Shown piece after piece: positions 30,891 through 49,096 of a DNA stretch of 64,000 bases. The stretch is from Amycolatopsis alba DSM 44262 (GTDB taxonomy: Bacteria; Actinomycetota; Actinomycetes; Mycobacteriales; Pseudonocardiaceae): contig NZ_KB913032.1 of the NCBI RefSeq assembly GCF_000384215.1, positions 2,621,665 through 2,685,664 on the forward strand, read 5' to 3'. The position numbers and the translations under genes are program-made. Under the pieces are notes generated by a model. The model saw only the letters and a list, made by a program, of their open reading frames with translations. It searched no databases and was not told the origin of the DNA. Each line of letters begins with the position of its first letter. The first letter of the stretch is position 1.

Positions 30891-30932
30891 GGTTCGTGTC
30901 TGCTGCCGGAAACCCGCGGAGGGAACGCCGAA

Positions 30933-33499: not shown

Positions 33500-34316
33500 C
33501 GCCAACATCGAGAACCTCGACTACGGCAACCGCGACCTCCCGATCGAGAAGGTGACGTCCGCCGACGGCACCACCATCGCCTACGAGAAGTCGGGCACCG
33601 GCCCGCCGGTGATCATCATCGGCGGCGGCCTGAACGAGAAGGCGATGCACGCCGAACTCGCCGAGGGCCTGTCCGAGAACTTCACGGTGTACAACTACGA
33701 CCGTCGCGCCCGTGGCGACAGCGACGACAAACGCGTCGGACCGTACACAGTGGACCGTGAGATCGAGGACCTGGCCGCGGTGATCGGCGCCGCGGGCGGC
33801 ACCGCCCACGTCTTCGCGAACTGCACCGGCTCGATGATCGCGGTCCCGGCGGCCGCCCGTGGCGTCCCGATGCTCAAGCTGGCCATGTACGAACCGCCGT
33901 ACAGCGGCCCGAAGGTCCCGCCGGGCTACACCGAACAGCTCATGGAGTTGCTGGCGCAGGACCGGATCAAGGACGCCGTCTCCCTGTTCCTGAAGTGGGA
34001 CGCGCTCTTCACCGACGACGAGATCGAGTTCTTCTCGACGCATCCGATCTGGCCCGCGTTCGAGGCGATGGCGCATTCGATGCCGTACGACTCGATCCTG
34101 TCCGACGACGCGGACCGCGTCCCGGTGGAGGAGCTGGGCGCGATCACGGTGCCGAGTCTTGTGCTCGGCGGCAACAAGAGTCCACAGTGGATGAAGGACA
34201 TGTGCCAGGCCGTCGCCGACGGGATCCCACGGGGCGAGTACGTCACCATGGACACCGCCGGGCACCTGATGGACGACACGCTGGGCGCTGAGCTTCTGAC
34301 GAAGTTCTTCCGCTGA
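33492..34316 (+). CDS. Alpha/beta hydrolase with Cys at the nucleophile position (copy 1)
   Basis: A 274-residue alpha/beta hydrolase-fold protein. The nucleophile elbow reads FANCTGSMIAV, so the usual Ser of Gly-x-Ser-x-Gly is a Cys. The acid and His positions look kept (VYNYDRRARGDSDD; TAGHLMDD). A close paralogue with the same Cys is encoded at 41021-41863. Cys nucleophiles occur in dienelactone hydrolases and some acyltransferases, so the activity is open. The GTG start overlaps the epoxide hydrolase stop by 8 nt. Confidence 0.82.
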   Translation: MTDANIENLDYGNRDLPIEKVTSADGTTIAYEKSGTGPPVIIIGGGLNEKAMHAELAEGLSENFTVYNYDRRARGDSDDKRVGPYTVDREIEDLAAVIGAAGGTAHVFANCTGSMIAVPAAARGVPMLKLAMYEPPYSGPKVPPGYTEQLMELLAQDRIKDAVSLFLKWDALFTDDEIEFFSTHPIWPAFEAMAHSMPYDSILSDDADRVPVEELGAITVPSLVLGGNKSPQWMKDMCQAVADGIPRGEYVTMDTAGHLMDDTLGAELLTKFFR

Positions 34317-34325
34317 GACGAACGA

Positions 34326-34371
34326 GTGAAGGCCTCCTTCCCCACCGAAAGGTAGGGAAGGAGGCCTTCAC
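34326..34371. repeat. REP-like palindrome, copy 1
   Basis: An imperfect palindrome with arms GTGAAGGCCTCCTTCCCCACC and its near-complement. It lies 10 nt after the hydrolase stop and can act as a terminator. Four related copies occur in this window, all at gene ends. Confidence 0.8.
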
Positions 34372-34383
34372 GGCGCTATCCCC

Positions 34384-34590
34384 CGTGGCGGCGCGACGCT
34401 GAGTGTCCCCAATGTTACTTTGGGAGCGCTCAACACAACCCGATGTCCTGAAGGCCCCCCTTGAGACGTTGAACGTCCCGAAGGGGTCCTTCGCGGCATC
34501 CACGGACGCTCCACCGATCGCGATCCACCCGTGGCGGCGCACCTGATGCCCCCAATGCCACAACGGGGGCACTCAACACAACCCGATGTC
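34384..34590. repeat. Two diverged direct copies of a ~62-bp intergenic repeat
   Basis: Copy A (34384-34447) and copy B (34530-34590) both begin CGTGGCGGCG and end CTCAACACAACCCGATGTC, with diverged centres each containing a small hairpin. A degenerate palindrome (34450-34493) lies between them. Together with the flanking REP-like elements they fill the 341-bp gene-free stretch 34317-34657. No gene was seen in it. Confidence 0.75.
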
Positions 34591-34637
34591 GTGAAGGCCT
34601 CCTTCCCTACCGTGAGGGTAGGGAAGGAGGCCTTCAC
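34591..34637. repeat. REP-like palindrome, copy 2
   Basis: A near-perfect palindrome with arms GTGAAGGCCTCCTTCCCTAC and complement around CGTGAGG. It lies downstream of the SgcJ-like gene (minus strand), so it may serve as its terminator. Confidence 0.8.
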
Positions 34638-34657
34638 GGACCTACGTTGCGAGAGCG

Positions 34658-35053
34658 TCAGTCCCGCGGGGTGTTCTGGTACGCGGCCAGCTTCCACTCG
34701 CCGTCCCGCAGGACAGCGGTCCACGAAGCACGCACCTTGGCGTTCTCGGCGACCGAGGTGTCGCCGGCCTGGATCACGCCGCCCTCGGTGTACAGCACGA
34801 CGACGCCGGGCGCGATCTCGCGCGCGTCGAACGGGGTGCCGGTGACCTGGGAGCCCTGGTAGGCGGTGGCGAACGCGCCCGCCATGAACTTCGCGATGTT
34901 GTCGCGGCCCTTGACGTGGACGCCGGGCAGGATCATCGTGCCATCCTCGACGAACACGTCGGCGAAGGCCTCCGCGTCGTGGCGGGCCCAGGCGGCGACG
35001 ATCTGGCCGGGCAGGGCGGCGACGCCGGTGGCGGTGTCGGCGGTAGCGGTCAT
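34658..35053 (-). CDS. SnoaL/SgcJ-like small protein
   Basis: A 131-residue NTF2-fold protein of the SgcJ/EcaC group: IVAAWARHDAEAFADVFVED, then GTMILPGVHVKGRDNIAKFM. The name comes from the C-1027 enediyne cluster gene sgcJ; the biochemical role is unclear, though members are recurrent in enediyne clusters. The start overlaps the upstream gene stop by 4 nt. It supports the enediyne assignment but is not decisive, since the fold is widespread. Confidence 0.78.
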   Translation of the reverse strand: MTATADTATGVAALPGQIVAAWARHDAEAFADVFVEDGTMILPGVHVKGRDNIAKFMAGAFATAYQGSQVTGTPFDAREIAPGVVVLYTEGGVIQAGDTSVAENAKVRASWTAVLRDGEWKLAAYQNTPRD

Positions 35054-35388
35054 CGGTCTGTCTCCTCGTTTCGGTTTCCGTTTTCGGCGGTGGAGAAGCC
35101 ATAGGAGCCGATGAGCGTGGCCCCACTGGGTACCGGTCCTTCGGGGGCCCGCTCGCGGATGCCCCGCTGGAACTCGTGGAACGCGGTCGACGCGGCGAGG
35201 GGATTGCCGTCGCCCTCGACGACACCGACGTGGACGAAACTCACCCCGTCGTCGAGTTTGAACGACGCGTAGCTCAGCCCGTCTGGCCGATCCCGCGCCA
35301 ATTCCGCGAAGACGGCCTCCACCAGTTTTTCGTTCTCACCGGCGGATTCCGGGGTCGTCTGATAACGGACGACGAACGCCGAACCCAT
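35050..35388 (-). CDS. Small dimeric alpha/beta-barrel-like protein, unknown function
   Basis: A 112-residue protein. MGSAFVVRYQTTPESAGENE followed by a helix and VSFVHVGVVEGDGNPLA resembles antibiotic-biosynthesis-monooxygenase (ABM) folds, but the match is weak. ATG 35388 follows AAGGAG. It is coupled to the SgcJ-like gene by a 4-nt overlap and faces the flavin monooxygenase operon. Confidence 0.6.
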   Translation of the reverse strand: MGSAFVVRYQTTPESAGENEKLVEAVFAELARDRPDGLSYASFKLDDGVSFVHVGVVEGDGNPLAASTAFHEFQRGIRERAPEGPVPSGATLIGSYGFSTAENGNRNEETDR

Positions 35389-35493
35389 TCGTGCTCCTTC
35401 CTCGTGGCGCGGAGGTCCACAACGGAAACTACGCGTTCGCCTGCCGCCGGAATACCACCGCGGGACAAGCTCGCAACCCCGGAGAAGCGCTAC

Positions 35494-35534
35494 GCAAAGC
35501 GGGAGAAGAGCGGCACGGCCGACCGGCATAGCGT
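35494..35534 (+). promoter_or_regulatory. Cluster promoter box for the flavin monooxygenase/MFS operon
   Basis: GCAAAGCGGGAGAAG (35494-35508), 20-nt spacer, TAGCGT (35529-35534), 46 nt before the ATG at 35580. A second copy of the box, GCAACCCCGGAGAAG, lies at 35473-35487, exactly 21 nt upstream, as a direct repeat on the same helix face. Confidence 0.65.
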
Positions 35535-35579
35535 TTTCCGTATTCGTCCACTCGCCTGACCACCGAAAGGCACACGCCA

Positions 35580-36983
35580 ATGGGAACGAAGATCGGCGAT
35601 CACGCCGTCGTGCTCGGGGGCAGCATCGCCGGGATGCTCGCCGCCCGCGTGCTTTCCGACGCCTACCGCCAGGTGACCGTCATCGAACGCGACGATCTCA
35701 CCGCGGCCGGGACGGATCTGCGCCCGGCGATCTCGTGGGCGATCCACATCCACGCCCTGCTCGAACGGGGCCGCATCATCATCGAGGACCTGTTCCCCGG
35801 TTTCGTCGACGACATGATCGCGGCCGGTGTCCCGGTCGGCGACTACGGGTCGACCTGCCACTACTACTTCAACGGCGACATGTTCGCCGTCACCGACACC
35901 GGGATGGCCTGTGTGGCCGCGAACCGGCCGGTTATCGAGCACTTCCTGCGGTCGCGCACGCTGCCGCGTCCCGGTGTCGTCCTGCGTGAGCGCACGGACA
36001 TCGTCGGCCTGGTCGCGAACGAGGGCAACGAGCGCATCACCGGGGTCCGCGTGCAGAGCCGCGACGGCGGCGGCGAAGAGGTCATCAGCGCGGACCTGAT
36101 CGTCGACGCTTCCGGCCGCGGTTCGCGTTCCCCGCGCTGGCTCGAGGAGCTCGGCTACGAGAAGGCACCGGAGGAGAAGGTCCAGATGGACCTGACCTAC
36201 ACGACGATGGACTTCGTCGGCCCGCTGCCCGTCGACCCGCTCGGCGAGGACATCGCGCTGGTCCCGACGGCGACCCCCGGCTTCCCACGCGGCGGCATCT
36301 TCGCGCGCCTGGCCGACCGGTACGCCCTCACCCTCACCGGCATCGCGGGCGACCGGGCGCCGACCGACCACGACGGCTTCCTGGCCTACGCCAAGACGTT
36401 GCCGGTCAAGGAGGTCTACAACGCCATCGAGAACGCGGAGCAGCGCGCGCCCGCCGGTTCGTTCCGGTTCCCGGCCAGCGTCCGCCGCCACTACGAGAAG
36501 CTGACCCGCTTCCCCGCCGGGTACCTGATCCTCGGTGACGCCGCCTGCATCTTCAACCCCGTCTACGCCCAGGGCATGACGGTCGCCGCGATGGGCGCGA
36601 ACGTGCTGCGCAAGCACCTGGAGAAGGGTGTCGAGCCGTCGTTCCGGGGCTACTTCCGCGATCTGGCCAAGGAGACCGACTCCCCGTGGATGATGTCCGC
36701 GTCGGCGGACCTCGGCTACGAGACGGTGCGCGGCAAGCGCACCCTGGCGACCAAGATCGGCAACGCCTACATGTCGAAGGTGATGGCGGCGGCCGCGAAC
36801 GACCCTGTGGTGGCGCGCGGGTTCATGCGCACCATCTCGCTGATCGACCCGCCGCAGGCGCTGATGAAGCCGTCGATGATGCGCCGGGTGCTGTTCTCCG
36901 GCGGTGGCAAGAAGAACGCCACCGTGACGACACTCCCCACCGCCAAGACGGACACCGGCGAGGCCGAGCGTCCCGCGGCCTGA
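35580..36983 (+). CDS. FAD-dependent monooxygenase/epoxidase-like protein
   Basis: A 467-residue group A flavoprotein. The dinucleotide-binding motif is AVVLGGSIAGMLAARVL at the N-terminus, with VIVDASGRGSRSP and the second FAD motif LILGDAACIFNPVYAQGMT near residue 320. Such enzymes hydroxylate or epoxidise aromatic or polyene substrates. It could tailor the aromatic acid or the core. It is followed 29 nt later by the MFS exporter gene on the same strand. Confidence 0.82.
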   Translation: MGTKIGDHAVVLGGSIAGMLAARVLSDAYRQVTVIERDDLTAAGTDLRPAISWAIHIHALLERGRIIIEDLFPGFVDDMIAAGVPVGDYGSTCHYYFNGDMFAVTDTGMACVAANRPVIEHFLRSRTLPRPGVVLRERTDIVGLVANEGNERITGVRVQSRDGGGEEVISADLIVDASGRGSRSPRWLEELGYEKAPEEKVQMDLTYTTMDFVGPLPVDPLGEDIALVPTATPGFPRGGIFARLADRYALTLTGIAGDRAPTDHDGFLAYAKTLPVKEVYNAIENAEQRAPAGSFRFPASVRRHYEKLTRFPAGYLILGDAACIFNPVYAQGMTVAAMGANVLRKHLEKGVEPSFRGYFRDLAKETDSPWMMSASADLGYETVRGKRTLATKIGNAYMSKVMAAAANDPVVARGFMRTISLIDPPQALMKPSMMRRVLFSGGGKKNATVTTLPTAKTDTGEAERPAA

Positions 36984-37012
36984 TCCTTTCGTCACGAGCA
37001 CGAGGAGTTCCG

Positions 37013-38467
37013 GTGAGTAATCTTCAGGCCGTCCGCTTCCGCTGGGCCGCGCTGGTCCTGCTGTGCGCGGCCAACTTCGCGGTCCTGCTGGATTCGCAGA
37101 GCGTCATCCTGGCGCTGCCTTCGCTGGCACCCGACCTCGGGATGTCGCCTGCCGACGCGCAGTGGGTGCTGAGCGCCAAGCTCATCACCTTCGGCGGGCT
37201 GCTCATCCTCGGCGGCCGGGCGGCCGACCACTTCGGCAGGCGCCGGGTGTTCGTGCTCGGCACGGCATTGTTCCTGGTCGGATCGGTCCTCTGTGGACTG
37301 GCATGGAGCCCCGCGGTGATCATCGCCGCGCGGGCGCTGAGCGGGATCGCGGCGGCGCTGATGGTGCCGACGGCGTTGTCGATCCTCATGAACACCTTCC
37401 CCGAGGGCAAGAGCCGCAACACCGCGCTCGCCGGCTGGTCCGGCATCGGCGGGATCGGCGCCACGGCGGGCCTGCTCGTCGGCGGGCTGCTCACGCAGAC
37501 CCTGGGCTGGCAGTGGGTGTTCTACGTCAACGTGCCGATCGCGGTGCTGGTCATGCTGCTGGCGCCGGTGCTGCTGCAGGAGAGCCGGGACTCCGGCAAG
37601 CGTCGCAGCCAGGACGTCGCGGGAGCCGTAGTCAGCACACTCGCACTCGTCGCGATCATCCTCGCCGTCGTCCAGGCGCCGGTATGGGGCTGGACGAGCG
37701 CGCCGACGCTGATCCTGTTCGCCGTCGCCGCCGGGCTGCTCGCGCTGTTCGTGGTGGTAGAGAAACGTTCGTCGGCGCCGCTGGTGCCCTTGGCGCTGAT
37801 CCGCCGTCCGGCGCTCGCGGGCGGCAACCTCGTCACCGTCGCGATGGGCATGGCGGCCTTCGGGCTTTCGGTCACCATCTCGATGTACGGGCAGGTCGTC
37901 CTCGGCTACAGCCCGCTGGAGTTCGGCGTGCTGCAATCGGTCATGCCGACGCTGGCGTTCGTGGGCGCGTACGTCGGCCAGTCCGTGGTGACCAGGCTGG
38001 GGGTCCGGCCGGTCGTCGCGGCCTGTCTCGTGCTGCTCGGCGCCGGCTGCCTGCTGCTTTCCCAGGTGCCGGTGAACGGTAGTTACGGGGCCGACATCCT
38101 GTGGGGTCTGGTCGTCTTCGGCCCTGGGCTGGGCGCGGGCATGGCGGCCGCGTCGGTGGCCGCGCTGTCCAAGGTGCCGCAGGCCGACAGCGGGGCGGCG
38201 TCGGGGATCAACGTCGCGTCGTTCCAGATCGGCGGCGCGCTCGGGGTCGCGGTGGTGACCTCGGTGTCGACGTCGTTCACCGCCGCGCCGGGCGGGCCCG
38301 CGGAGTTCACCGCCGGGCTTCAGGCTTCGTTCGTGGCTTGCGTGATCTTCGCCGTCATCGGCCTCGGCGTGACCTTCACCCTGTTGCGCGGCAACAAGAA
38401 GCGTCACCTCCACAGCGTCGACGGCCAGAACCGCTCCGACCGGGACGATCTCCCGCTCGCCGGCTGA
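37013..38467 (+). CDS. MFS exporter, DHA2 (EmrB/QacA) family
   Basis: A 484-residue membrane protein with about 14 hydrophobic segments. The DHA2 signatures are visible: FAVLLDSQSVILALPSLAPD in segment 1, GGRAADHFGRRRVFVLG after segment 2, and WRWVF-like LGWQWVFYVNVPIAVL in segment 5. The GTG start at 37013 follows CGAGGAG. Enediyne clusters encode DHA2 exporters (SgcB, NcsA1) that remove the product, so this is a likely self-resistance pump. Confidence 0.88.
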   Translation: MSNLQAVRFRWAALVLLCAANFAVLLDSQSVILALPSLAPDLGMSPADAQWVLSAKLITFGGLLILGGRAADHFGRRRVFVLGTALFLVGSVLCGLAWSPAVIIAARALSGIAAALMVPTALSILMNTFPEGKSRNTALAGWSGIGGIGATAGLLVGGLLTQTLGWQWVFYVNVPIAVLVMLLAPVLLQESRDSGKRRSQDVAGAVVSTLALVAIILAVVQAPVWGWTSAPTLILFAVAAGLLALFVVVEKRSSAPLVPLALIRRPALAGGNLVTVAMGMAAFGLSVTISMYGQVVLGYSPLEFGVLQSVMPTLAFVGAYVGQSVVTRLGVRPVVAACLVLLGAGCLLLSQVPVNGSYGADILWGLVVFGPGLGAGMAAASVAALSKVPQADSGAASGINVASFQIGGALGVAVVTSVSTSFTAAPGGPAEFTAGLQASFVACVIFAVIGLGVTFTLLRGNKKRHLHSVDGQNRSDRDDLPLAG

Positions 38468-38470
38468 CCT

Positions 38471-38531
38471 GAAATCCGTGAAGGCCTCCTTCCCTACTCT
38501 CAAGGTAGGGAAGGAGGCCTTCACGGATTTC
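38471..38531. repeat. REP-like palindrome, copy 3 (27-bp stem)
   Basis: The longest copy: an almost continuous 27-bp stem from GAAATCCGTGAAGG to its complement CCTTCACGGATTTC with the loop TCTCAAG. It lies between the convergent exporter and halogenase genes and almost certainly terminates both. Confidence 0.88.
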
Positions 38532-40102
38532 TAGAGGCCTCGGTGCAGGGCATCGATGTACTCGCGGTGACTGGGCAGGCCGGCGGAGTAGATCTCCCGC
38601 TCCTTGTCGATCTGCTCGAACATCTCCCACGCGGCGGCGTCGTTCATCAGCTCGACCGACGGCGGGGCCTTCTTGAAGTCGAAGTCCATTCCGGACAGGA
38701 TCGCCCAGAGACTGCGGGTCTCGAACAGCCGCAGCTGGCTGCCGTCGGGGATGATGACGCTCTCCGCGTACTCGGTGAGCTTCTCCTCCAGGCTCGCCGG
38801 GATCGGCGCCTCCCGGACGGCACGCCAGAACTCGGTGTCGTCGCGGTCGGTGAGCGTGTAGTGCATGACGATGAAGTCGCGCAGGTCCTCGAACGCGCTG
38901 ACCATGAGTTCGTTGTAGCGGGCCTTGCGGCGCTCGTCGAAGTCCGAGTCCGGGAAGTGCAGCACCAGCAGTGCGAGCTGGTACTCGATGAGCGCGATCG
39001 TGGTGGACTCCAGCGGCTCGACGAAGCAGCTCGACAGGCCAACCGCGATGCAGTTGTTCACCCACGAGCGCCGGTTGTGCCCGACGCGCATCTTGATGTG
39101 GTTACCCGCGATGTCGTGCCCCCGGCCGCCGAGGTGCTGCCGCAGCTGCTGTTCGGCCTTCTCGGGTGTGGTGAACGCGCTGGAGTAGACGAAACCGGTG
39201 CCGTCACGGTCGGCCAGGGGGATCTCCCAGATCCAGCCGTCCGGTTTCGCGGTGGCGGAAGTGTACGGCCGCAGGCCGCCTTCCTGGTGTTCCGCCGGGA
39301 GCGCGACGGCGGAGTCGCACAGCAGGACGTCGTTGGCGCTGACGAACGGCTCGTTGAGCGTCTGGTTGATCAGCAGGCCGCGGAATCCCGTGCAGTCCAG
39401 GAAAAGATCGGCTTCGATCTCGCCGGCGGTGTCCGTGACGACCTTCTCGATCACGCCGCGCGGGTCGACGGTCACCGACTTCACGTCCGCCGAAACGAAC
39501 TTCACGCCGCGGCCGGTCGCCAGGTCACGGAGGTACTTGGCGATCAGCGCGGCGTCGAAGTGGTAGGCGTAGCGGTAGCCGGGGTCCGGTGCGTCGGTGC
39601 CGGGCAACGGTTTCGGCGCCTTGTCGAGCTCGCAAAGACGCTGCAGGGCCATTCCCGCGTCGCCGAAGGTCTCGCGTACGCGCGTGTCCCCGGCCAGCCG
39701 CTGCTTCAGCCAGAAGTGCGCGAGTGAGACGCCGCGGCCGAATCGCTTGTGGAACGGCTGCTCGTAGTTCCGCACCGCGGGTTCGGGAACGTCGAAGAAC
39801 GGGTGATAATAGGTGTGGCTGTCGCGGCCCTCGTGGGGTTTGCGCCAGTCGTTGAACCGGACGGCGGATTTGAAGACCGCGTTGGTCTTCGGCATCCAGT
39901 CCTCTTCTTTCATGCCGAGGAAGGAAAACGTGGTCCGCAACGTCGGGACCGTGGCCTCACCCACGCCGATCCGCGGGATCCGCGGCGACTCGATCAGGGT
40001 GATGTCGACCTTTCTGCCGAAGGCGCGGTTCAGGTAGGCGGCGGACAGCCAGCCGGCCGTGCCACCCCCGACGATCACGATCTTCTGTATTGGACGTGCC
40101 AC
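38531..40102 (-). CDS. Flavin-dependent halogenase, tryptophan-halogenase family
   Basis: A 523-residue FADH2-dependent halogenase. The FAD motif is GGGTAGW at residues 12-18, followed by IGVGEATVP. The Lys in AVFKSAVRF (residue 78) matches the catalytic Lys79 of PrnA. The WxWxIP halogenase motif reads WIWEIP, and the glutamate in CFVEPLEST corresponds to the active-site Glu. GTG 40102 follows AAAGGAGC with an 8-nt spacer and is preferred over more upstream starts. The substrate is unknown; the aromatic acid from the PKS is the obvious candidate. Next to the apoprotein on the same strand but separated from it by a terminator. Confidence 0.9.
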   Translation of the reverse strand: MARPIQKIVIVGGGTAGWLSAAYLNRAFGRKVDITLIESPRIPRIGVGEATVPTLRTTFSFLGMKEEDWMPKTNAVFKSAVRFNDWRKPHEGRDSHTYYHPFFDVPEPAVRNYEQPFHKRFGRGVSLAHFWLKQRLAGDTRVRETFGDAGMALQRLCELDKAPKPLPGTDAPDPGYRYAYHFDAALIAKYLRDLATGRGVKFVSADVKSVTVDPRGVIEKVVTDTAGEIEADLFLDCTGFRGLLINQTLNEPFVSANDVLLCDSAVALPAEHQEGGLRPYTSATAKPDGWIWEIPLADRDGTGFVYSSAFTTPEKAEQQLRQHLGGRGHDIAGNHIKMRVGHNRRSWVNNCIAVGLSSCFVEPLESTTIALIEYQLALLVLHFPDSDFDERRKARYNELMVSAFEDLRDFIVMHYTLTDRDDTEFWRAVREAPIPASLEEKLTEYAESVIIPDGSQLRLFETRSLWAILSGMDFDFKKAPPSVELMNDAAAWEMFEQIDKEREIYSAGLPSHREYIDALHRGL

Positions 40103-40248
40103 GGAAATGCTCCTTTGCGGTCCAGAAACCCCCACTAAGCTGCGCAAACGAGCGTAGGTTCCGATCGCACGATCGGGCAGGGTCCGGCTCATCCCTTCCC
40201 GATGAGTTACACCGTCTCGATCATGAGCTTCGCCTCAAGCGGACATAA

Positions 40249-40280
40249 GGGCACGGATCGCCGCGAGGCGACCCGTGCCC
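40249..40280 (-). terminator. Terminator of the apoprotein gene
   Basis: Arms GGGCACGGATCGCC and GGCGACCCGTGCCC pair over 14 bp (one G-U wobble in the minus-strand RNA) with a GCGA loop, 15 nt after the apoprotein stop. Confidence 0.75.
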
Positions 40281-40295
40281 TCAGGGGTCACGCCA

Positions 40296-40724
40296 CTACT
40301 GGAAAGAAATGGCGACACCGGCGGGACCATTACCCGCGGCGTCCGCCAGACCGATCACGCAGGTGACCGCCGAGCAATCGACCGTACCGTACGAACTGCC
40401 GTCGAAAAGAATTCCCTCGAAGCTCTTCTTCACGGTCAGCGGAGTGGAAAGGGTTCCATCGCCCGCGGCCGTCACGTCGACCCGGCCCGAAGCGTTGCAG
40501 GCGAGCACGCCGGACGACACTTCGGCACACTCGCCGACGGTGTAGGCCGTCCCCGCCGTCAGCCCCGACGCACCCACCTGGACCACGGCGTTGTCGGCCA
40601 ACCCGGACGACGGCGTCACCGTTGCCGAAGGGGCGTCGGCCGACGCGGGCGCCTGGAAGGCGACAAGCATGCCGAGAGCGGCGGCGGTACCGGCGACGGT
40701 CTTCACGAAAACGCTTTTGCGCAT
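40296..40724 (-). CDS. Secreted enediyne-binding apoprotein, neocarzinostatin family
   Basis: A 142-residue precursor with a signal peptide (basic MRKSVFVK, hydrophobic core, cleavage at APASA-DAP after residue 29). The mature 113 residues align without gaps to neocarzinostatin as I remember it, about 60% identical by hand count. Cys37/47 and Cys88/93, the two disulfides, are at identical positions, and SFEGILFDG and DAAGNGP are kept. Ligand-pocket residues differ: Trp39 is Glu, Phe52 is Arg, Trp83 is Tyr, whereas Phe78 is kept. Such proteins bind and protect a nine-membered enediyne chromophore. It has its own strong promoter (TTGACA-N18-TAAATT), a GGAG site and a terminator, as expected for an abundant secreted protein. 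Confidence 0.93.
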   Translation of the reverse strand: MRKSVFVKTVAGTAAALGMLVAFQAPASADAPSATVTPSSGLADNAVVQVGASGLTAGTAYTVGECAEVSSGVLACNASGRVDVTAAGDGTLSTPLTVKKSFEGILFDGSSYGTVDCSAVTCVIGLADAAGNGPAGVAISFQ

Positions 40725-40807
40725 GACTTTTTACTCCTTCATCGGGGTGAGGACGGAATGAATGGCGGGGGATATTTTCGTATTGTTCCCCGGCGCTTCC
40801 GGTAATG

Positions 40808-40837
40808 AATTTACGGATCTTCGAGGTTGCTTGTCAA
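40808..40837 (-). promoter_or_regulatory. Strong promoter of the apoprotein gene
   Basis: On the minus strand TTGACA (40837-40832), 18-nt spacer, TAAATT (40813-40808), about 85 nt before the ATG. The spacer contains GCAACC and an inverted copy of the cluster box (GCAACCGAGGAGAAG, 40850-40864) lies just beyond the -35, so the same regulator may act here. The 40725-41020 interval holds this promoter and the divergent one at 40947, no gene. Confidence 0.65.
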
Positions 40838-40946
40838 CGAATTCTGTTCGCAACCGAGGAGAAGCGGAGCAATCTTGAGGCCGGATACCCTTTGCGCACT
40901 ATGTCGGGTTCGCCCCGCTCGGGCGGCCCGGTCGCGAAGCATGCGG

Positions 40947-40987
40947 GCAAGCAGGGAGATGGCATGGAGGTGAGCGCGACCTAGCGT
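40947..40987 (+). promoter_or_regulatory. Cluster promoter box for the hydrolase/P450/SDR operon
   Basis: GCAAGCAGGGAGATG (40947-40961), 20-nt spacer, TAGCGT (40982-40987), 34 nt before the ATG at 41021. A further box, GCAACCGAGGAGAAG at 40850-40864, is followed after 21 nt by TACCCT and could drive a second promoter. Confidence 0.62.
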
Positions 40988-41020
40988 GGGAAGCGGGTTT
41001 CGACAGGCGGGAGATTCGTG

Positions 41021-41863
41021 ATGGCGAACCAGGAAACCGCGGCCAGTCTCGACAACATCGGGTTCGGGACACGGGGTCTCGTACTCGAACACGTGACGTC
41101 GGCGGACGGGACGCGGATCGCCTTTGAGAAGTCCGGGGAAGGCCCGCCGGTGATCATTCTCGGCGGCGGGCTCAACGAGAAGGCGATGTTCGCCGACCTC
41201 GCCGAGCTGCTCTCGGAGGATTTCACCGTCTACAACTACGATCGCCGCGGCCGCGGGAACAGCGAGGACAACGGCGGGCTGTCCGGGTACACCATCGACC
41301 GCGAGGTCGAAGACCTGGCGGCGGTCCTCGATGCGGCAGGCCCCGAGGCGGCGATCTTCGCCAACTGCACCGGCGGCCTGATCGCCATGCGGGCGGCGGC
41401 GAACGGCGTCCCGATGGGCAAAATGGCGCTGTACGAACCCACTTACGGCGGCCACCAGCTGCCAGAGTCCTATATGGACGATCTGGAGCGGATGGTCGCC
41501 GCCGATCACCGCACCGACGCGGTCGCGCTGTTCCTGAGAGAGAACGTCCGGTTCAGCCAGGAAACCATCGAGGGCTTCAAATCCCTTCCCATCTGGCCGT
41601 CGTTCGAGGCCATGGCCCCGACGACGCTCTACGACTCCATCCTCGACGCGAACCACGAGGCCGTCCCGTTCGGCGAGCTGCCGGGCATCGGGGTGCCGAC
41701 CCTGGTGATCGGCGGCAGGGAAAGCCCTTCGTGGCTGATCGACAACTGCCACGCCCTCGCCGACGGGCTCCCCAACGGCCAGTACGTCTGCATGAACGAG
41801 GGGCATCTGTTCAACCAGAAGGCGGGCGCCCCGCTGCTCACGGTGTTCTTCCGGTCCCAGTAA
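41021..41863 (+). CDS. Alpha/beta hydrolase with Cys at the nucleophile position (copy 2)
   Basis: A 280-residue paralogue of the protein at 33492-34316. Shared blocks include KSGEGPPVIILGGGLNEKAM, FTVYNYDRRGRGNS and the elbow IFANCTGGLIAM, in which Cys again replaces Ser; the His is in MNEGHLFN. ATG 41021 is better spaced from the GCGGGAG site than the GTG at 41018. Two diverged copies in one cluster suggest two acyl-transfer or hydrolysis steps, or a duplicated resistance function. Confidence 0.82.
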   Translation: MANQETAASLDNIGFGTRGLVLEHVTSADGTRIAFEKSGEGPPVIILGGGLNEKAMFADLAELLSEDFTVYNYDRRGRGNSEDNGGLSGYTIDREVEDLAAVLDAAGPEAAIFANCTGGLIAMRAAANGVPMGKMALYEPTYGGHQLPESYMDDLERMVAADHRTDAVALFLRENVRFSQETIEGFKSLPIWPSFEAMAPTTLYDSILDANHEAVPFGELPGIGVPTLVIGGRESPSWLIDNCHALADGLPNGQYVCMNEGHLFNQKAGAPLLTVFFRSQ

Positions 41864-41898
41864 GCACAACCCTTTTCGATCGTTGAGGAGAAGATCCG

Positions 41899-43137
41899 AT
41901 GGAAAGCCGCTGCCCTTACACCTTGGACATCGCGGGTACGGACATTCACGCGGAGAGCGAGGCTCTGCGCGCCCGTGGGCCGATCACCCAGGTCGAGCTG
42001 CCCGGCGGGGTGATCGGGTGGTCGGTGACCGGCTACCAGGCGGCGCGCCAGGTGCTGGCCGACAACCGGTTCGCCAAGGACCCGCAGAAGTGGACCAAAT
42101 ACACCGAAGGCGAGATCCCGTCGAACTGGCCGCTGATCGGCTGGCTCCTGATGGACAACATGACCACGAACGACGGTGAGGACCACAACCGCCTGCGCAA
42201 GCTGGTTTCCCGTGGTTTCACGCCGAAGCAGGTCGAGCTGACCCGGCCGCTGATCCAGAAGATCGTCGACGACCTCCTCGACGGCCTTTCCGGCTTCGGC
42301 GCGGACGAGGTCGTCGACCTCAAGGGCCGCTTCGCGACCCCGCTGCCCGCCCGCGTCATCTGCGACATGTTCGGTGTCCCGGAGTCGGCCCGCGCGTCGG
42401 CGCTGCGCGGCGCGGGCGTCAACGTCACCACGACCACCACCGGTGACGAGGCCGAGGCGAACGTCGAGCTGTGGCACCAGGAACTGACCGACCTCGCCGA
42501 GTTCAAACGCGAGCACCCCGGCGACGACCTGACCAGCCTCTTGCTCGCCGCGCGCGAGGAGGACGGCAGCAGGCTCACCGACGAGGAGATGGTCGGCACC
42601 CTGCACCTCATGCTGGGCGCCGGTTCCGAGACGCTGATGAACGCGCTCAGCGCCGCCGTCGTCGCGCTGCTGAGCCAGCCCGAGCAGAAGGAACTGCTGG
42701 ACAGCGGCCAGGTTTCCTGGGACGACGTCATCGAAGAGGCGCTGCGGGTCAACGCCCCGGTCGCGCAGCTGCCGCTGCGGTACGCGACCGAGGACATCGA
42801 GGTCGCCGGGGTCACCATCCGCAAGGGTGACCCGGTGCTGATGGGCTTCACCGCCATCGGCCGCGACCCGGAGAACCACGGCGAGACCGCCGGGCAGTTC
42901 GACGCCACCCGCGCCGACAAGACGCACCTGTCGTTCGGACACGGCGCGCACTTCTGCCTCGGCGCGCCGCTCGCGCGGCTGGAGCTGCGGATCGCGCTGC
43001 CCGCCCTGTTCGCCCGCTACCCGGACCTGAAGCTCGCTGTCGGCGTCGACGAGCTCGAAGGCCAGGGCACGTTCATCATGAACGGCCACAAGGAGGTCCC
43101 GGTGCGGCTGGGCGAGCCCTCGCTGGTGCGGTCATGA
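41899..43137 (+). CDS. Cytochrome P450 (1)
   Basis: A 412-residue bacterial class I P450. The haem-binding loop is FGHGAHFCLGAPLARLEL with the ligand Cys at residue 353; the I-helix reads HLMLGAGSETLMN and the ExxR helix EEALRVN. It would hydroxylate or epoxidise a pathway intermediate, with the reductase at 47361-48311 or a host ferredoxin as electron donor. It follows the hydrolase gene by 35 nt and overlaps the SDR gene by 4 nt. Confidence 0.9.
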   Translation: MESRCPYTLDIAGTDIHAESEALRARGPITQVELPGGVIGWSVTGYQAARQVLADNRFAKDPQKWTKYTEGEIPSNWPLIGWLLMDNMTTNDGEDHNRLRKLVSRGFTPKQVELTRPLIQKIVDDLLDGLSGFGADEVVDLKGRFATPLPARVICDMFGVPESARASALRGAGVNVTTTTTGDEAEANVELWHQELTDLAEFKREHPGDDLTSLLLAAREEDGSRLTDEEMVGTLHLMLGAGSETLMNALSAAVVALLSQPEQKELLDSGQVSWDDVIEEALRVNAPVAQLPLRYATEDIEVAGVTIRKGDPVLMGFTAIGRDPENHGETAGQFDATRADKTHLSFGHGAHFCLGAPLARLELRIALPALFARYPDLKLAVGVDELEGQGTFIMNGHKEVPVRLGEPSLVRS

Positions 43138-43916
43138 CCGGCGGGTCCGTCCACGACGCGCCGCTGGCGGTCGTCACCGGCGCGTCGTCGGGGATCGGCG
43201 CGGAGTTCACGCGGGTGCTGCGGGACCGCGGCTACCGCGTGCTCGCCGTCGCCCGCCGCGCGGACCGGCTCGACGAGCTGGCGAAGGGATCGAACGGCTT
43301 CATCGTCCCCTTCGTCCGCGACGTCACCTCCGAGGGCGCGGCCGAAGCGATCCTCGGGCGTGCGGAGGAGCTCGGCGGCGCCGACCTCCTCGTCTGCAAC
43401 GCCGGCCGGGGATCGAGGGGCCGGATCCACGAATCGGATCCGGCCGACGCGCTCGGCATGATCGGGCTCAACGTGACCGCGAACGTCGACCTCGTGTCGC
43501 AGGCCGTCCCCAAGATGGTCGCGCGCGGCTCGGGCGGCATCATCGTCGTCGCGTCGAACCTCGGCTTCTTCGCCACCCCGAACATGGCCGTCTACGGCGC
43601 CACGAAGGCCTTCCTGCTGTCCTTCACCGAGTCGCTTTCGGCGGAGCTGGCGGGGACCGGGGTACGGGCCATGGCACTGTGCCCTGGCGCGACCTCGACC
43701 GAGTTCGGCGACGTCGCCGGTCTCGGTGACACGGTCGAGAAGACACCTGGCTTCACGACCGCGGAAGAGGTCGTGCGAGGCGGTTTGAAGGCGTGGGACA
43801 AGGGGCGCGCGATCACCGTGCCCGGAACCGTCGCACGCCTGCTCACGGCGTTCTTGGCCTACTCCCCGCGGGCGCTGTCTCGCCGGATCATGGGCAAGAT
43901 CTTCACCGCCGGATGA
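43134..43916 (+). CDS. Short-chain dehydrogenase/reductase
   Basis: A 260-residue classical SDR. The NAD(P)-binding motif is VVTGASSGIGAEF at the N-terminus, with LVCNAGRG further on; the active-site YxxxK is in YGATKAFLLSF. ATGA overlap with P450 (1) suggests that it reduces or oxidises the P450 product. An adjacent 10-bp hairpin follows the gene. Confidence 0.87.
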   Translation: MTGGSVHDAPLAVVTGASSGIGAEFTRVLRDRGYRVLAVARRADRLDELAKGSNGFIVPFVRDVTSEGAAEAILGRAEELGGADLLVCNAGRGSRGRIHESDPADALGMIGLNVTANVDLVSQAVPKMVARGSGGIIVVASNLGFFATPNMAVYGATKAFLLSFTESLSAELAGTGVRAMALCPGATSTEFGDVAGLGDTVEKTPGFTTAEEVVRGGLKAWDKGRAITVPGTVARLLTAFLAYSPRALSRRIMGKIFTAG

Positions 43917-43943
43917 CCACTATCGGGTGAATGTCCGGAATTG

Positions 43944-43972
43944 CCGGGCGCGAGCGATGAGTTCGCGCCCGG
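43944..43972. other. Perfect 10-bp hairpin between SDR and hydrolase genes
   Basis: CCGGGCGCGA and TCGCGCCCGG pair perfectly around a 9-nt loop. There is no T run. It may partially terminate the operon or act as a processing site before the hydrolase gene at 44035. Confidence 0.5.
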
Positions 43973-44034
43973 CCCGGAGTCCAACCTGTGACGCCGCCAC
44001 CCGACGGGCGGAAGATCGAGGAAGGACGACCGAG

Positions 44035-44832
44035 ATGACCAGCACGAACGAGATCACCATCCCCGGCGGCCGGCTGCACTACGAGGTCCGCGGCGACGGA
44101 CCAGTGCTGCTGGCCATGGGCTCACCGATGGCCGCGGACGCCTTCGCCCCGCTGGCCGACGCGCTGGCGAGCCGCTTCACCGTGGTGACCCACGACCCCC
44201 GTGGCATCGCCCGGAGCCCCCTGGACGACCCGAACGAGGATTCGAGCCCGGAGAAGCGCGCCGAAGACGTCATCGCGATCCTGGACCACTTCGGCGCCGA
44301 GACGGCCGACGTCTTCGGCTCCAGTGGTGGCGCGATGACCACGCTCGCGCTGGCCGCCCGCCACCCCGGCCGGATCCGGACGGTCGTCGCGCACGAGCCT
44401 CCCGCGCTGACCCTGCTGCCCGACGCGGCCGAGCGGCACGCCGACGTCGACGACATTGTGAAGGCCTTCGAGACCGAAGGCCTCGAAGCGGCCTGGACGA
44501 AGTTCCTCGGCACCTCGGGCTTCGAGGAGGACGAGGCGGGCCCGCCGCCGAGCGACTCCCCCGAGCAGGACCAGGAGGACGGCCGCCGGTTCTTCGTGCA
44601 CGAGCTCCGCACGACCACGCGCTACACCCCCGAGCTCGACGCGTTGCGCGACGGGCCGTTCCGGATCGTGGTCGGTCTCGGCGCCGACTCCGGCGGCCTG
44701 CTCACCAAGCGGACGTGCGCCGCGCTCGCCGACGAACTCGGCGTCGAGGTGGTCGAGTTCCCCGGCGATCACGGCGGCTTCATCTGGGACCCGGAAGGCT
44801 TCGCCAAACTGCTCGGCGACATCCTGGTCTGA
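44035..44832 (+). CDS. Alpha/beta hydrolase (Ser nucleophile)
   Basis: A 265-residue alpha/beta hydrolase. The elbow is VFGSSGGAMTT with a normal Ser, unlike the two Cys-type hydrolases in the cluster; the C-terminal His is in FPGDHGGFIWD. ATG 44035 follows GGAAGGA. Probably an esterase-like or resistance hydrolase; the substrate is unknown. It is on the plus strand downstream of the SDR and converges with the aminotransferase. Confidence 0.78.
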   Translation: MTSTNEITIPGGRLHYEVRGDGPVLLAMGSPMAADAFAPLADALASRFTVVTHDPRGIARSPLDDPNEDSSPEKRAEDVIAILDHFGAETADVFGSSGGAMTTLALAARHPGRIRTVVAHEPPALTLLPDAAERHADVDDIVKAFETEGLEAAWTKFLGTSGFEEDEAGPPPSDSPEQDQEDGRRFFVHELRTTTRYTPELDALRDGPFRIVVGLGADSGGLLTKRTCAALADELGVEVVEFPGDHGGFIWDPEGFAKLLGDILV

Positions 44833-44842
44833 CCCCCGGCGG

Positions 44843-44872
44843 GGCCGCCCTCAGAATTCGACGAGGGCGGCC
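44843..44872. terminator. Bidirectional hairpin between convergent hydrolase and aminotransferase
   Basis: GGCCGCCCTC and GAGGGCGGCC pair perfectly over 10 bp with a 10-nt loop. The hairpin overlaps the last codons of the aminotransferase gene. Confidence 0.6.
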
Positions 44873-46122
44873 TTGCGGGCGGCGTCGAGCAGCTCGCGCG
44901 AGATCCGGTCCGCCTGCTCGGCGGTGAGGATCAGCGGCGGCGCGAGCACGACGTTCTTGACCGTGCGCCGGACCAGGACGCCGTTGTCGCGCATCAGTTT
45001 CCTGACGTGGGCGGCGCGGCGGGACCGGTCCATCTCGACGGCGATCATCAGGCCGCGGCCGCGGATGTCGGTCACGCAGTCCAGTTCCCGCAACGGTTCC
45101 AGTGTGGCGAGCAGCTGCTCGCCACGGGCCTGGACGTTCGCGAGGAGCTGTTCTCTTTCGATGTGGTCGATCACCGCGAGCCCGGCGGCGCAGGCGGTGG
45201 CGTGCCCGGAATGCGTGTGCCCGTGCACGAAACCGGCCATCTTCTTGTTGCTGTCGAACACTTCGAAGACGTGCTGGGTGGTGGTGACAGCGCCGAGCGA
45301 GATGTAGCCGGCCGCCAGCCCCTTGCTGGTGGCGAGGATGTCCGGCTGGACGCCGGCGTGCTGGTAGCCGAACATCCGTCCGGTCCGGCCGAAACCGGTG
45401 GTCACCTCGTCGAGGACCAGCAGGATCCCGTGCTCGTCGCACAGTTCCCGCACGCCGCGCAGATAGTCCTCCGGCATGACGTAGGCGCCGCGCGACTGGA
45501 CCGGTTCGACGAGGACGGCCGCCGTGCGCTTCCCGTGATCGGCGAGGAAACCCTTCAGCGCGCCGATGCCTTCCTCCGGGCCGGGAACGGTGATGAACCC
45601 GCTCGGCGTCAGGTCGTCGGAGATCGGCGACGGCGCCCCGGCGGTCGCGGCGCCTGCCATCGTGGCGCCGTGGTAACCGTTGTGCAGCGAGACGATCAGC
45701 CCGCGGTCGGGCGAGCCGAGCACGGCCTGATAGAAGCGCGCGATGCGGATCGCGGCCTCCATCGCCTCGGAACCGCTGTTACAGAAGAAGGTCCGGGTCA
45801 GTGCCGGGCCGGCGAGCTCGCCGATCCGTTGCGCCAGGCGGATCGCGGGGATGTTGGCGCCCTCGCCCATGTCGTAAGTCATCAGCTTCGCGACCTGTGC
45901 CGAGATGGCGTCCACGACCGGCCCGCAGGCGTAGCCCAGCGTCGCGTTGAAGCCGGACGACTTCGCGTCCAGGTACGTGCGGCCGTCGGCGTCGGTGACC
46001 TCGCAGCCTTTGCCGGACACCGCGACGAGCGTGTCGGGGCTGACCCGGCTCGGTGACCACGGGTGCCACAGGTACTCGGCGTCGATGGCGAGCAGTTCGG
46101 CCTGCCCCTCGGTTTCGCTCAT
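44851..46122 (-). CDS. Class III PLP aminotransferase (second)
   Basis: A 423-residue class III aminotransferase. Features are FFCNSGSEAMEAAIRIARFY, LLVLDEVTTGFGRTGRMF and the Schiff-base Lys in ILATSKGLAAGY. It is clearly homologous to, but diverged from, the one at 30933-32288, so the two probably act on different substrates. ATG 46122 lies 14 nt after the P450 stop, so it is the last gene of a reductase-P450-aminotransferase operon on the minus strand. Confidence 0.87.
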   Translation of the reverse strand: MSETEGQAELLAIDAEYLWHPWSPSRVSPDTLVAVSGKGCEVTDADGRTYLDAKSSGFNATLGYACGPVVDAISAQVAKLMTYDMGEGANIPAIRLAQRIGELAGPALTRTFFCNSGSEAMEAAIRIARFYQAVLGSPDRGLIVSLHNGYHGATMAGAATAGAPSPISDDLTPSGFITVPGPEEGIGALKGFLADHGKRTAAVLVEPVQSRGAYVMPEDYLRGVRELCDEHGILLVLDEVTTGFGRTGRMFGYQHAGVQPDILATSKGLAAGYISLGAVTTTQHVFEVFDSNKKMAGFVHGHTHSGHATACAAGLAVIDHIEREQLLANVQARGEQLLATLEPLRELDCVTDIRGRGLMIAVEMDRSRRAAHVRKLMRDNGVLVRRTVKNVVLAPPLILTAEQADRISRELLDAARKAALVEF

Positions 46123-46136
46123 TTCCGCTTTGCCTC

Positions 46137-47342
46137 TCAGTTCGCCAGCCGGGCACGGACCGGGATGGAATGCCAGGCCCGCAAGGTGTTGTTGAGCCGC
46201 CGTTCGCCAGGAGCTGCCAGTTCCAGCGTCTCGACGCGTTCCGCGAGCGCGGTGATGAGGCATTCGGCCTCCAGGCGGGCCAGGTTCTGCCCGACGCATT
46301 GGTGCAGCCCGAACCCGAAGCCGACGTGCCCGGACGGGTCGCGGGAGAGGTCGAACTTCTCCGGATCGGCCCAGCGCCGGGGATCGCGGTTGGCCGCGCC
46401 CAGGAACATCAGCACCTTCGCGCCGTCGGGCACGACGTGGTCACCGACCGGGACATCGCCCACCGCGGTGCGGAAGAACGTCTGCACCGGGGACGCCCAG
46501 CGCACGGCCTCGTCGAACGCGATCCGCGCCAGCGACGGCTCGGCGCGCAGCCGGGCCCACTGCTCGGGATGCGTGACCAGCGCGTGCATGACGGCGGCGA
46601 GCGCGTGCACGGTGGTGTTGAATCCGGCGGCGAACAGCGAGCGCACGACGCCCGGCGCCTGCTCGTGGGTGATCTCGCCGCGATCGGCGGCCGCCCAGAT
46701 CTGCCCGCCTAAACCATCTTCGGTGAGGGCGTCGCGCTGGCAGTGCTCCATGACCCACGTCGTCAGGAACTTCGCGTGCGGCGCGCCCGCGGCGACGAGT
46801 TCGTTGCGTGGGCCGAAAGCGTTGAGGAGGAAGTCGCTGAAGGGCAACAGGTTCTCGCGGCCTTCCTCGGGCAGCCCGAGCGCGTCGCCGACCGCGCGCG
46901 GCGGGAACTTCTCCGCGATCGCCGTCACCGCGTCGAACTCGATCGTGCCGCCAGGGGTGCCGTCGAGGACCTGGCCGACCATCTTGTGCGCCTTGGCCAT
47001 CCATTCGGCGCGAAGCCTGCGCTGGGCGCGCGGGCCGAGCAGATTCGCGAGGACCCGGCGCGGCGCGTCGTGGTGCGGCGGGTCCGCCTCGACGACGATG
47101 CTCAACTGGCGCCACGGTTTCTCGGTCCGGAAGTTGGAGAGCCCGACCCCGGCACCGGACTGGAACCCTTGCCAGTTCCGCAAAGCCGCGTACACCGCGT
47201 CGTACCGGGCGACGGCGTAGATGTCGTGCGCGCTCAGGTAGGCGAGCGGTCCCGCGTCGAGCAGGGCGTGCTCGAGCGGGTACGGATCCGTCAGCACCTC
47301 GGTGCCGAACGGGTCGATGTCGATGACGGGCAACGACGTCAT
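46137..47342 (-). CDS. Cytochrome P450 (2)
   Basis: A 401-residue P450. The haem loop is FGFGLHQCVGQNLARLEAE with the Cys at residue 349; the I-helix reads FAAGFNTTVHAL, where a normally acidic/Thr pair is replaced by Asn-Thr-Thr. The protein lies directly downstream of an Fe-S reductase gene, a common P450 redox pairing. ATG 47342 is 9 nt after the GGAGG site and is preferred over GTG 47348. Confidence 0.88.
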   Translation of the reverse strand: MTSLPVIDIDPFGTEVLTDPYPLEHALLDAGPLAYLSAHDIYAVARYDAVYAALRNWQGFQSGAGVGLSNFRTEKPWRQLSIVVEADPPHHDAPRRVLANLLGPRAQRRLRAEWMAKAHKMVGQVLDGTPGGTIEFDAVTAIAEKFPPRAVGDALGLPEEGRENLLPFSDFLLNAFGPRNELVAAGAPHAKFLTTWVMEHCQRDALTEDGLGGQIWAAADRGEITHEQAPGVVRSLFAAGFNTTVHALAAVMHALVTHPEQWARLRAEPSLARIAFDEAVRWASPVQTFFRTAVGDVPVGDHVVPDGAKVLMFLGAANRDPRRWADPEKFDLSRDPSGHVGFGFGLHQCVGQNLARLEAECLITALAERVETLELAAPGERRLNNTLRAWHSIPVRARLAN

Positions 47343-47360
47343 GATCACGGCCTCCGGGGC

Positions 47361-48311
47361 TTACAGATCCAGTACGAGCCGGTCGGTGCACGAACGTGAG
47401 ACGCAGGGGTACATGCAGTCCCCCGCCGCGCGGTCCTCGGCGGTGAGGAGGGCGTCACGGTGGTCGACGACGCCGTCCAAGACCGTGGTCTCGCAGGTGC
47501 CGCAGACACCCTCCATACAGGACGAAAGCAGGTCGACGCCGACCGTGCGCATCGCGTCGATCACGGTCATGTCCTGCGTGACGGTGACCGTCGCGCCCCG
47601 TCGCGCCAGCACGATGTCGAACGGCTCGTCGCGCACCGGCGCGCCCTGCTCCGGCGCCGAGAAGCGTTCCGTCCACAGGGTGGGCGCGGGCCAAGGAGCG
47701 CAAGCGTTCTCGACGGCTTTGAGCAATCCCTCCGGGCCGCAGCAATAGACGCGGAGTCCGTCGCGGACTTCGCCGAGCCAGGCTTGAAGATCCGGCCGTC
47801 CCTGTTCGTCTTCCGGGACGATGTGGACCTTTTCCTGGTAGGAGGCCAGTTCGCCGAGAAACGCCATGGAGTTTCGCGTCCGGCCGCCGTAGACGAGATT
47901 CCAGTCCGCGCCGACGAGCTCTGCCTGATGGATCATGGGAAGCAGCGGGGTGATCCCGATCCCGCCCGCGATGAAGAGGTAGTTCTTCGAGGGCACGAGC
48001 GGGAAGTTGTTGCGGGGGCGGCTCACTCCGACGGTGTCGCCGATCTTGAGCTTGTCGTGGACGTACGCGGAACCGCCGCGGCCGTCGGGCTCGCGCAGGA
48101 CCCCGACCCGGTATTCGCAGGCGTTCCAACGATCTCCGCACAGGGAGTACTGCCGGGTCAGCCCGCCGGGCAGCACCAGGTCGATATGCGAACCGGGCGT
48201 CCAGTCGGGCAGGCGCGCGCCGTCCGGGGCCCTGAGGAGCAGCGAAACAACCCCTTCGGCGACGACGTCCTTGGCCGCGACGCGCAACGTCGTCTGCACC
48301 TGCGCCTGCAT
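47361..48311 (-). CDS. Flavin/[2Fe-2S] reductase (P450 or oxygenase electron donor)
   Basis: A 316-residue phthalate-dioxygenase-reductase-like protein. Domain order is flavin-binding (SHIDLVLPGGLTRQYSLCGD), NAD-binding (FIAGGIGITPLLPM and YCCGPEGLL), and a C-terminal plant-type [2Fe-2S] ferredoxin (SSCMEGVCGTCETTVLDG with a later MYPC). It can transfer electrons from NAD(P)H to an oxygenase, here most simply the P450 18 nt downstream. Confidence 0.88.
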   Translation of the reverse strand: MQAQVQTTLRVAAKDVVAEGVVSLLLRAPDGARLPDWTPGSHIDLVLPGGLTRQYSLCGDRWNACEYRVGVLREPDGRGGSAYVHDKLKIGDTVGVSRPRNNFPLVPSKNYLFIAGGIGITPLLPMIHQAELVGADWNLVYGGRTRNSMAFLGELASYQEKVHIVPEDEQGRPDLQAWLGEVRDGLRVYCCGPEGLLKAVENACAPWPAPTLWTERFSAPEQGAPVRDEPFDIVLARRGATVTVTQDMTVIDAMRTVGVDLLSSCMEGVCGTCETTVLDGVVDHRDALLTAEDRAAGDCMYPCVSRSCTDRLVLDL

Positions 48312-48342
48312 CGTGCCCGCCCTCCGCTCGTTCGTGCTCTCC

Positions 48343-48383
48343 ACGGTTCCACGGCGGGCTCGGGTGTACGTCTCCCTGAATGC
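48343..48383 (-). promoter_or_regulatory. Candidate cluster promoter box for the reductase/P450/aminotransferase operon
   Basis: On the minus strand GCATTCAGGGAGACG (48383-48369), 20-nt spacer, AACCGT (48348-48343). The spacing matches the other copies; the -10 is a weak match. Confidence 0.42.
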
Positions 48384-48467
48384 TCGGGTGCTTGAGCAAT
48401 CGGGAATATTGTTCGGCGGGGTGTGACGGGCGGACCATCGGATTCTACGTCGATCCATGGAGGACGC

Positions 48468-49031: not shown

Positions 49032-49045
49032 TCGCTTTGGGCATG

Positions 49046-49085: not shown

Positions 49086-49096
49086 TGATGTGGGGG

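Follow-up and report, generated by a model that had tools for sequence, protein, structure and literature searches.

A neocarzinostatin-family apoprotein locus in Amycolatopsis alba and its probable partnership with a distant enediyne core cassette

The stretch of 64,000 nucleotides from the chromosome of Amycolatopsis alba DSM 44262 that was analysed here, hereafter the window, encodes a new member of the neocarzinostatin (NCS) apoprotein family, and by the similarities of the surrounding genes the window carries an enediyne peripheral gene set. The apoprotein and this peripheral set probably act together with a single enediyne polyketide synthase (PKS) cassette, 2.24 Mb away, in the production of a secreted 9-membered enediyne chromoprotein. 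The two gene sets reside in one chromosome, and homologues of both are contiguous in A. suaedae.

The apoprotein and its ligand cleft

The apoprotein gene (40296..40724, minus strand) encodes 142 amino acids from an ATG start, just upstream of which a ribosome-site-like AAGGAG was read by eye. A signal peptide is predicted from the sequence, with cleavage after ASA leaving a mature part of 113 residues, in agreement with the original prediction of an NCS-family apoprotein of this layout. Membership of the family is documented by PF00960 of Pfam (108 bits, cut-off 25), by the NCBIfam model NF040680, 'enediyne antibiotic chromoprotein' (140 bits, cut-off 86), and by the best match in the PDB, which is NCS itself (141 bits; 71 of 112 residues identical, 63%). 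Cys37, 47, 88 and 93 (NCS numbering) are all present and in register as had been claimed, and would form the pairs 37-47 and 88-93. The mature part of an AlphaFold2 model has a pLDDT of 92-97 by block, and Foldseek superposes the model on holo-NCS 1nco with an rmsd of 0.6 and a TM score of 0.98 by target (0.78 by query length, the query including the signal peptide), the predicted fold being the 1nco-like beta-sandwich. All 14 structure matches of the model at E<=0.001 are to NCS (including mutants), macromomycin, C-1027, kedarcidin or actinoxanthin, which argues against a non-enediyne beta-sandwich protein, the outcome that the original prediction had named as fatal to it. The gene holds the single PF00960 match of the genome (E 0.001), and a dN/dS of 0.07-0.18 over the mature part (six pairs from four orthologous sequences) indicates that the apoprotein is under purifying selection. 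Directly 3' of the gene lies a strong hairpin (40246..40283, minus strand; -43.6 kcal/mol for the 60-base stretch against a shuffle mean of -21.4, z -8.5), a likely transcript end.

The pocket residues were correctly called: Glu replaces Trp at position 39, Arg replaces Phe at 52 and Tyr replaces Trp at 83, while Phe78 is kept. In NCS, chromophore protons lie by W39 and F52 according to the accessible text of PMC5952040, and F52 and the C37-C47 disulfide are placed right below the nine-membered ring in that of PMC2694159. Given this reported position of F52, R52 may tune ligand binding. The further claim, that the cleft has been remodelled and would accept another enediyne chromophore, more polar or of opposite charge, is compatible with the pathway proposed here but seems to us unlikely. 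It draws on two real substitutions, one of them at the residue reported below the ring (PMC2694159, accessible text), and the E39/R52 pair is limited, among the proteins aligned, to the window group (the protein and its close orthologues) and P0004. Position 39 is, however, highly variable: across the 40 rows of the pocket alignment (36 loci and four proteins, with the window protein and the A. suaedae protein each entered twice) it is occupied by 11 different residues, E in 10 rows, Q in 8, T in 8 and the W of NCS in a single one (G030), with a gap in one, and it is P in C-1027 and actinoxanthin. Glu39 recurs in three more distant relatives, the proteins of A. suaedae, S. yaizuensis and G565; of 13 further proteins, that of G565 has E at this position and the others F, Q, V, L, I or P. 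Phe78 is kept in 7 of the 40 rows, namely the window group, P0004 and the S. yaizuensis protein only, and in one of the 13 further proteins, that of G565. Together with the gene set shared with G565, the Phe78 pattern groups the window protein by sequence with the NCS-like ones, and the neighbouring genes indicate an NCS-like aromatic arm. Pocket residues alone do not predict a different ligand class.

The original statement that few such apoproteins are known is dated, as a PF00960 match is present in 35 of 80 Amycolatopsis genomes, not all of the matching proteins necessarily being enediyne carriers. Class-wide PF00960 matches include long open frames, perhaps multi-domain proteins, and a family match alone was therefore not taken as proof of enediyne function. 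Apoprotein-like proteins without Cys88 and Cys93 were seen in G792, G613, G681 and G626 (among loci L172, L174, L175, L178 and L179), and that of G776 is without Cys88, its alignment ending before position 93; those of G613, G681 and G626 lie 44-53 kb from an enediyne thioesterase.

The peripheral gene set of the window

Three enzymes of the window, an iterative-type I PKS, a ligase and an O-methyltransferase (OMT) of NcsB1 type, together form the enzyme set predicted for an NCS-type naphthoate arm. The PKS (54411..60032, minus strand; KS-AT-DH-KR-ACP by Pfam, the ORF likely overlong at the N-terminus) is a predicted aromatic acid synthase, the acid likely being a naphthoate. Among the best 120 of 7,986 scored candidates the named characterised homologue is AziB, a 5-methyl-1-naphthoate synthase (53%), closer ones being unnamed or auto-named, some as '6-methylsalicylic acid synthase', and the named homologues among these 120 do not fix the product. 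The AMP-dependent ligase (59762..61567, plus strand; PF00501, 255 bits; start uncertain, overlapping the PKS ORF) is predicted to activate the aromatic acid and is 54% identical to its counterpart in the A. suaedae enediyne stretch and 60% to that in G565. The OMT (61629..62642, minus strand) matches PDB 3i53, which we take to be NcsB1 of the NCS pathway, at 438 bits (next match 256), with 212 of 330 residues identical (64%). The match itself is labelled just 'O-methyltransferase', and a structural study of NcsB1 is cited, without a PDB code, in the accessible part of PMC10784701. NcsB1-like OMTs at 50-56% identity are common on apoprotein contigs of the control genus (see below), and such an enzyme is therefore not by itself specific to NCS.

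Among the remaining neighbours, the SgcJ homologue (34658..35053, minus strand; 131 aa) resembles a protein of the C-1027 cluster (PDB 4i4k, SgcJ, 157 bits), the next copy in the genome reaching only 36 bits. The halogenase (38531..40192, minus strand; 553 aa) is flavin-dependent and of the tryptophan-halogenase family (PF04820, 467 bits; best PDB match tryptophan 5-halogenase 8fov, 413 bits). Counterparts in the A. suaedae stretch are found for an FAD-dependent oxidoreductase (35580..36983, plus strand; 60%), a cytochrome P450 (41899..43137, plus strand; 60%) and an alpha/beta hydrolase (41018..41863, plus strand; 52%), and a second P450 (46137..47348, minus strand) is 72% identical to one in the NCS-like module of G565. 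The set further comprises another alpha/beta hydrolase (33492..34316, plus strand), a short-chain dehydrogenase (43134..43916, plus strand), an MFS efflux transporter (37013..38467, plus strand; the ORF is open from 36686, and the GTG at 37013 was picked by gene spacing) and two class III aminotransferases, one (30933..32288, plus strand) whose matches to single NCBIfam models stay under the curated cut-offs and one (44851..46299, minus strand) matching PF00202 at 304 bits. An epoxide hydrolase with an EHN domain (32285..33499, plus strand; PDB 5f4z 472 and 4i19 433 bits, next 169) belongs to a paralogue-rich family, with genome paralogues 31-52% identical; it was rejected as a unique marker because paralogues elsewhere in the genome match the A. 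suaedae enzyme equally well (55 vs 57%). A scan of 22 neighbouring ORFs revealed no recognisable gene for deoxysugar synthesis. Between the convergent transporter and halogenase genes, 38472-38530 holds a perfect 26-base inverted repeat with a 7-base loop, likely a shared terminator.

The distant core and its distribution

The only enediyne PKS cassette of the genome (G000) lies on contig C1 at 409-446 kb of the chromosome, 2,237 kb from the apoprotein gene, so the apoprotein is not contiguous with the core. Its PKS of 1939 aa has Pfam KS, AT, KR and DH domains and DynE8 matches in the PDB; the enediyne-type PKS that the original prediction required of the genome is thus present. Beside it, at 424.7 kb, is the only thioesterase match of the genome, closest to PDB 4i4j (253 bits; CalE7 202, DynE7 126), which we assume to be SgcE10. 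The other genes encode UnbV, two DUF1702 proteins, a DUF5987 protein, a GMC oxidoreductase, a flavin reductase, a carboxyltransferase and regulators. With its enediyne PKS, thioesterase and UnbL/V/U-type genes, the locus has the core genes of an enediyne cluster. From thioesterase similarity and the apoprotein, the enediyne is likely 9-membered; in the accessible text of PMC5181780 it is the E2 gene that serves as a 9-membered marker.

In A. suaedae (G072), homologues of the window genes and of the core genes share one stretch of about 86 kb. The window-like genes there encode SgcJ (61%), a P450 (60%), the FAD oxidoreductase (60%), the ligase (54%), the apoprotein (50%), a hydrolase (52%) and an epoxide hydrolase (55%), and the core genes the PKS (74%), the carboxyltransferase (78%), GMC (83%), the flavin reductase (68%), UnbU (65%), UnbV (59%) and DUF1702 (67%), plus regulators. 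One contig of G565 carries homologues of the window PKS (70%), ligase (60%), OMT (65%), P450 (72%) and apoprotein (58%), the core being on another contig of this fragmented assembly. S. yaizuensis has an apoprotein and a 68% homologue of the window PKS, for each of which the longest contig is given as 219,124 bases, and these two are probably on the same contig.

As a control, 392 genomes of the genus of G565 and G356 were used (inferred to be Streptomyces; one member, G665, has a near-C-1027 apoprotein), in 13 of which an apoprotein scores 84 bits or more and a thioesterase is matched at E<=1e-25. Apoprotein and core are on one contig, 31-72 kb apart, in 9 of the 13 and on different contigs, where the distance is undecidable, in 4. 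Two more genomes, G678 and G759, pass the apoprotein threshold but not that for the thioesterase. G715 has a weaker apoprotein-like match (76 bits) with a thioesterase 1.48 Mb away on the same contig; a 68% OMT homologue lies on another contig, and this is possibly another split case. Two thioesterase matches about 7 kb apart were seen in each of G490, G613, G651, G222 and G565, one at 77-80% and the other at 45-54% identity, which suggests paired cassettes.

Among the 80 Amycolatopsis genomes, strong thioesterase matches showed no significant association with PF00960 matches (Fisher p 0.16, 0.56 and 0.38 for the three cut-offs used), in a test of low power, given that the thioesterase is found in 64 of the 80, and genus-wide co-occurrence was rejected as proof of linkage. 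That share of genomes matching an enediyne-type thioesterase at 160 bits or more is high for one genus. Some PF00960 proteins of the genus lie apart from such genes: those of L043 (G028), L048 (G064) and L052 (G040), at 134-140 bits, are 1.5-6.5 Mb from any enediyne thioesterase match or on another contig, and G045 has a PF00960 protein and no enediyne thioesterase match. Around the top-scoring PF00960 protein of the genus, L043 of G028, no enediyne genes were found within the 40 kb read.

The core thioesterase, at >=95% identity, is common to 19 of the 80 Amycolatopsis genomes. Four of these have a window-type apoprotein (G000, A. coloradensis, A. oliviviridis and A. pittospori), and all four neighbourhoods were read. 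The locus conserved with the three other species covers 16246..64000 of the window, its right edge lying beyond the window and its left edge near 16.2 kb in A. oliviviridis and A. coloradensis and near 18.0 kb in A. pittospori; the listed enzyme genes are 89-98% conserved (tblastn) in these species. A second type of apoprotein, assigned by its sequence, occurs in seven (G006, G014, G023, G052, G060, G063 and G076), the neighbourhood being read for G060 and G063 only, where it matches the A. suaedae half at 37-83%. Of the rest, G019 has an apoprotein of another kind (80 bits) and G049 a 29-bit trace, and six core-bearing members (G013, G025, G044, G034, G042 and G074, the last judged by its OMT and missing PF00960 match only) have no PF00960 match. 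In G042 and G034 a related set without an apoprotein (PKS 92-94%, halogenase 81-82%, OMT 64-65%) occupies the chromosomal slot of the window locus, next to the same flanking genes. In G042, where the PKS and the ligase are each present in a second copy, the slot is at 343-381 kb of contig C3; in G034 it is at 152-187 kb of contig C82. ORFs in genome neighbourhoods were called by a simple codon-position GC rule, by which start positions are approximate and some genes could have been overlooked.

Apoprotein loci of both types, in 11 genomes, lie off the core, at a distance that is decidable in six and amounts to 0.44-4.5 Mb. Both are on one contig in G000 (2.24 Mb), G060 (3.44 Mb), G063 (4.53 Mb) and G076 (3.15 Mb), contig ends set a minimum of at least 0.44 Mb in G012 and at least 0.67 Mb in G052, and the remaining five genomes give lower bounds only, of 43-108 kb. 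More than one thioesterase match is present in G012, G014, G052 and G063, which makes the core partner of the apoprotein ambiguous there; the additional thioesterases of G063 are 2.5 and 3.1 Mb from its second-type apoprotein.

A probable pathway in two places

That the pathway is split is argued for by the A. suaedae stretch, where homologues of window and core genes are united, and by the second-type loci of G060 (3.4 Mb) and G063 (4.5 Mb), which are far from the shared core and match the A. suaedae half. The distant cassette would make the enediyne core, and the window PKS, OMT, ligase, P450s and halogenase would make and activate an aromatic acid, favoured to be of naphthoate type and possibly chlorinated. 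This arm would be joined to the core, and the apoprotein, exported via its signal peptide, would hold the labile chromophore in its cleft and thereby shield the drug as well as its producer. Sister species apparently combine the same core with other distant peripheral sets.

Alternatively, the window locus could make an unrelated halogenated aromatic polyketide, with the apoprotein a stand-alone scavenger against the enediyne of the cell itself or of a neighbour. The apoprotein gene does have its own likely terminator and lies 2.24 Mb from the core, sister genomes retain the aromatic genes without an apoprotein, and G045 and, at the stricter cut-off, G678 and G759 each have a PF00960 protein but no enediyne thioesterase match. 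Against this reading stand the recurrence of SgcJ, ligase, P450 and apoprotein homologues with a core in A. suaedae, the joint presence of homologues of the PKS, ligase, OMT, P450 and apoprotein on a single contig of G565, and an OMT closest to 3i53, presumably an NCS-pathway enzyme, and we regard it as improbable. That the window is a relic of a once-contiguous cluster, as A. suaedae still has, which lost its core and no longer makes an enediyne, is very improbable in view of enzyme genes that are open in the window and 89-98% conserved in three other species, the low dN/dS of the mature apoprotein and a core cassette still in the same genome.

With the split pathway as the preferred explanation, a broader one may be put forward tentatively, at somewhat less than even chance: in this Amycolatopsis clade one conserved warhead locus may serve interchangeable, megabase-distant peripheral loci, each with its own aromatic arm and mostly its own matched carrier, so that chromophore and cleft would vary together and the warhead would remain constant.

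Among known systems, NCS (ncs, Streptomyces carzinostaticus) is like the window in its apoprotein (63%) and in the OMT, 64% identical to 3i53 (NcsB1, as we assume), and like the genome as a whole in having an iterative-type aromatic PKS, ligase and P450 as well as an enediyne PKS cassette. C-1027 (sgc) shares SgcJ with the window and, presumably through SgcE10 (4i4j), the closest relative of the core thioesterase, but its apoprotein is 36% identical in structural alignment and has P39. The window departs from NCS by W39E, F52R and W83Y, by its halogenase and by the lack of a recognised deoxysugar-synthesis gene in the ORFs scanned. In the accessible text of PMC6804068, ncsA is part of the ncs cluster, for which 92 kb of DNA were cloned, and kedA is part of the kedarcidin (ked) cluster, whereas apoprotein and core are 2.24 Mb apart here. 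Kedarcidin too is a 9-membered enediyne with an NCS-family apoprotein, 36% identical in structural alignment. The amycolamycins (acm) of Amycolatopsis sp. HCa4 likewise combine an enediyne with an aromatic PKS, CoA ligase, methyltransferase and halogenase, but their genes occupy about 76 kb of contiguous DNA and include a 6-methylsalicylate synthase (PMC8037709, accessible text, where an apoprotein is not mentioned). The A. suaedae stretch shares the apoprotein, SgcJ, FAD oxidoreductase, P450 and ligase homologues and the same core genes; it differs in being contiguous and in carrying a KS-pair arm, as in the second locus type, in place of the type I PKS arm of the window. With its apoprotein in a peripheral set remote from the core, the system is likely, as far as the genes tell, a known kind of cluster in split form. 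No description of a split enediyne cluster or of an Amycolatopsis apoprotein was found in the literature searched, most subscription papers lying outside the search. Cyanosporaside genes may be split in one Salinispora strain.

Mining for enediynes works outward from the enediyne PKS. If the pathway is split, mining of this kind would list the core as an orphan and overlook the arm and the carrier alike. If true, the arrangement in these Amycolatopsis genomes would offer a natural series, of the same core with different arms and apoproteins, for studying the co-evolution of cleft and chromophore.
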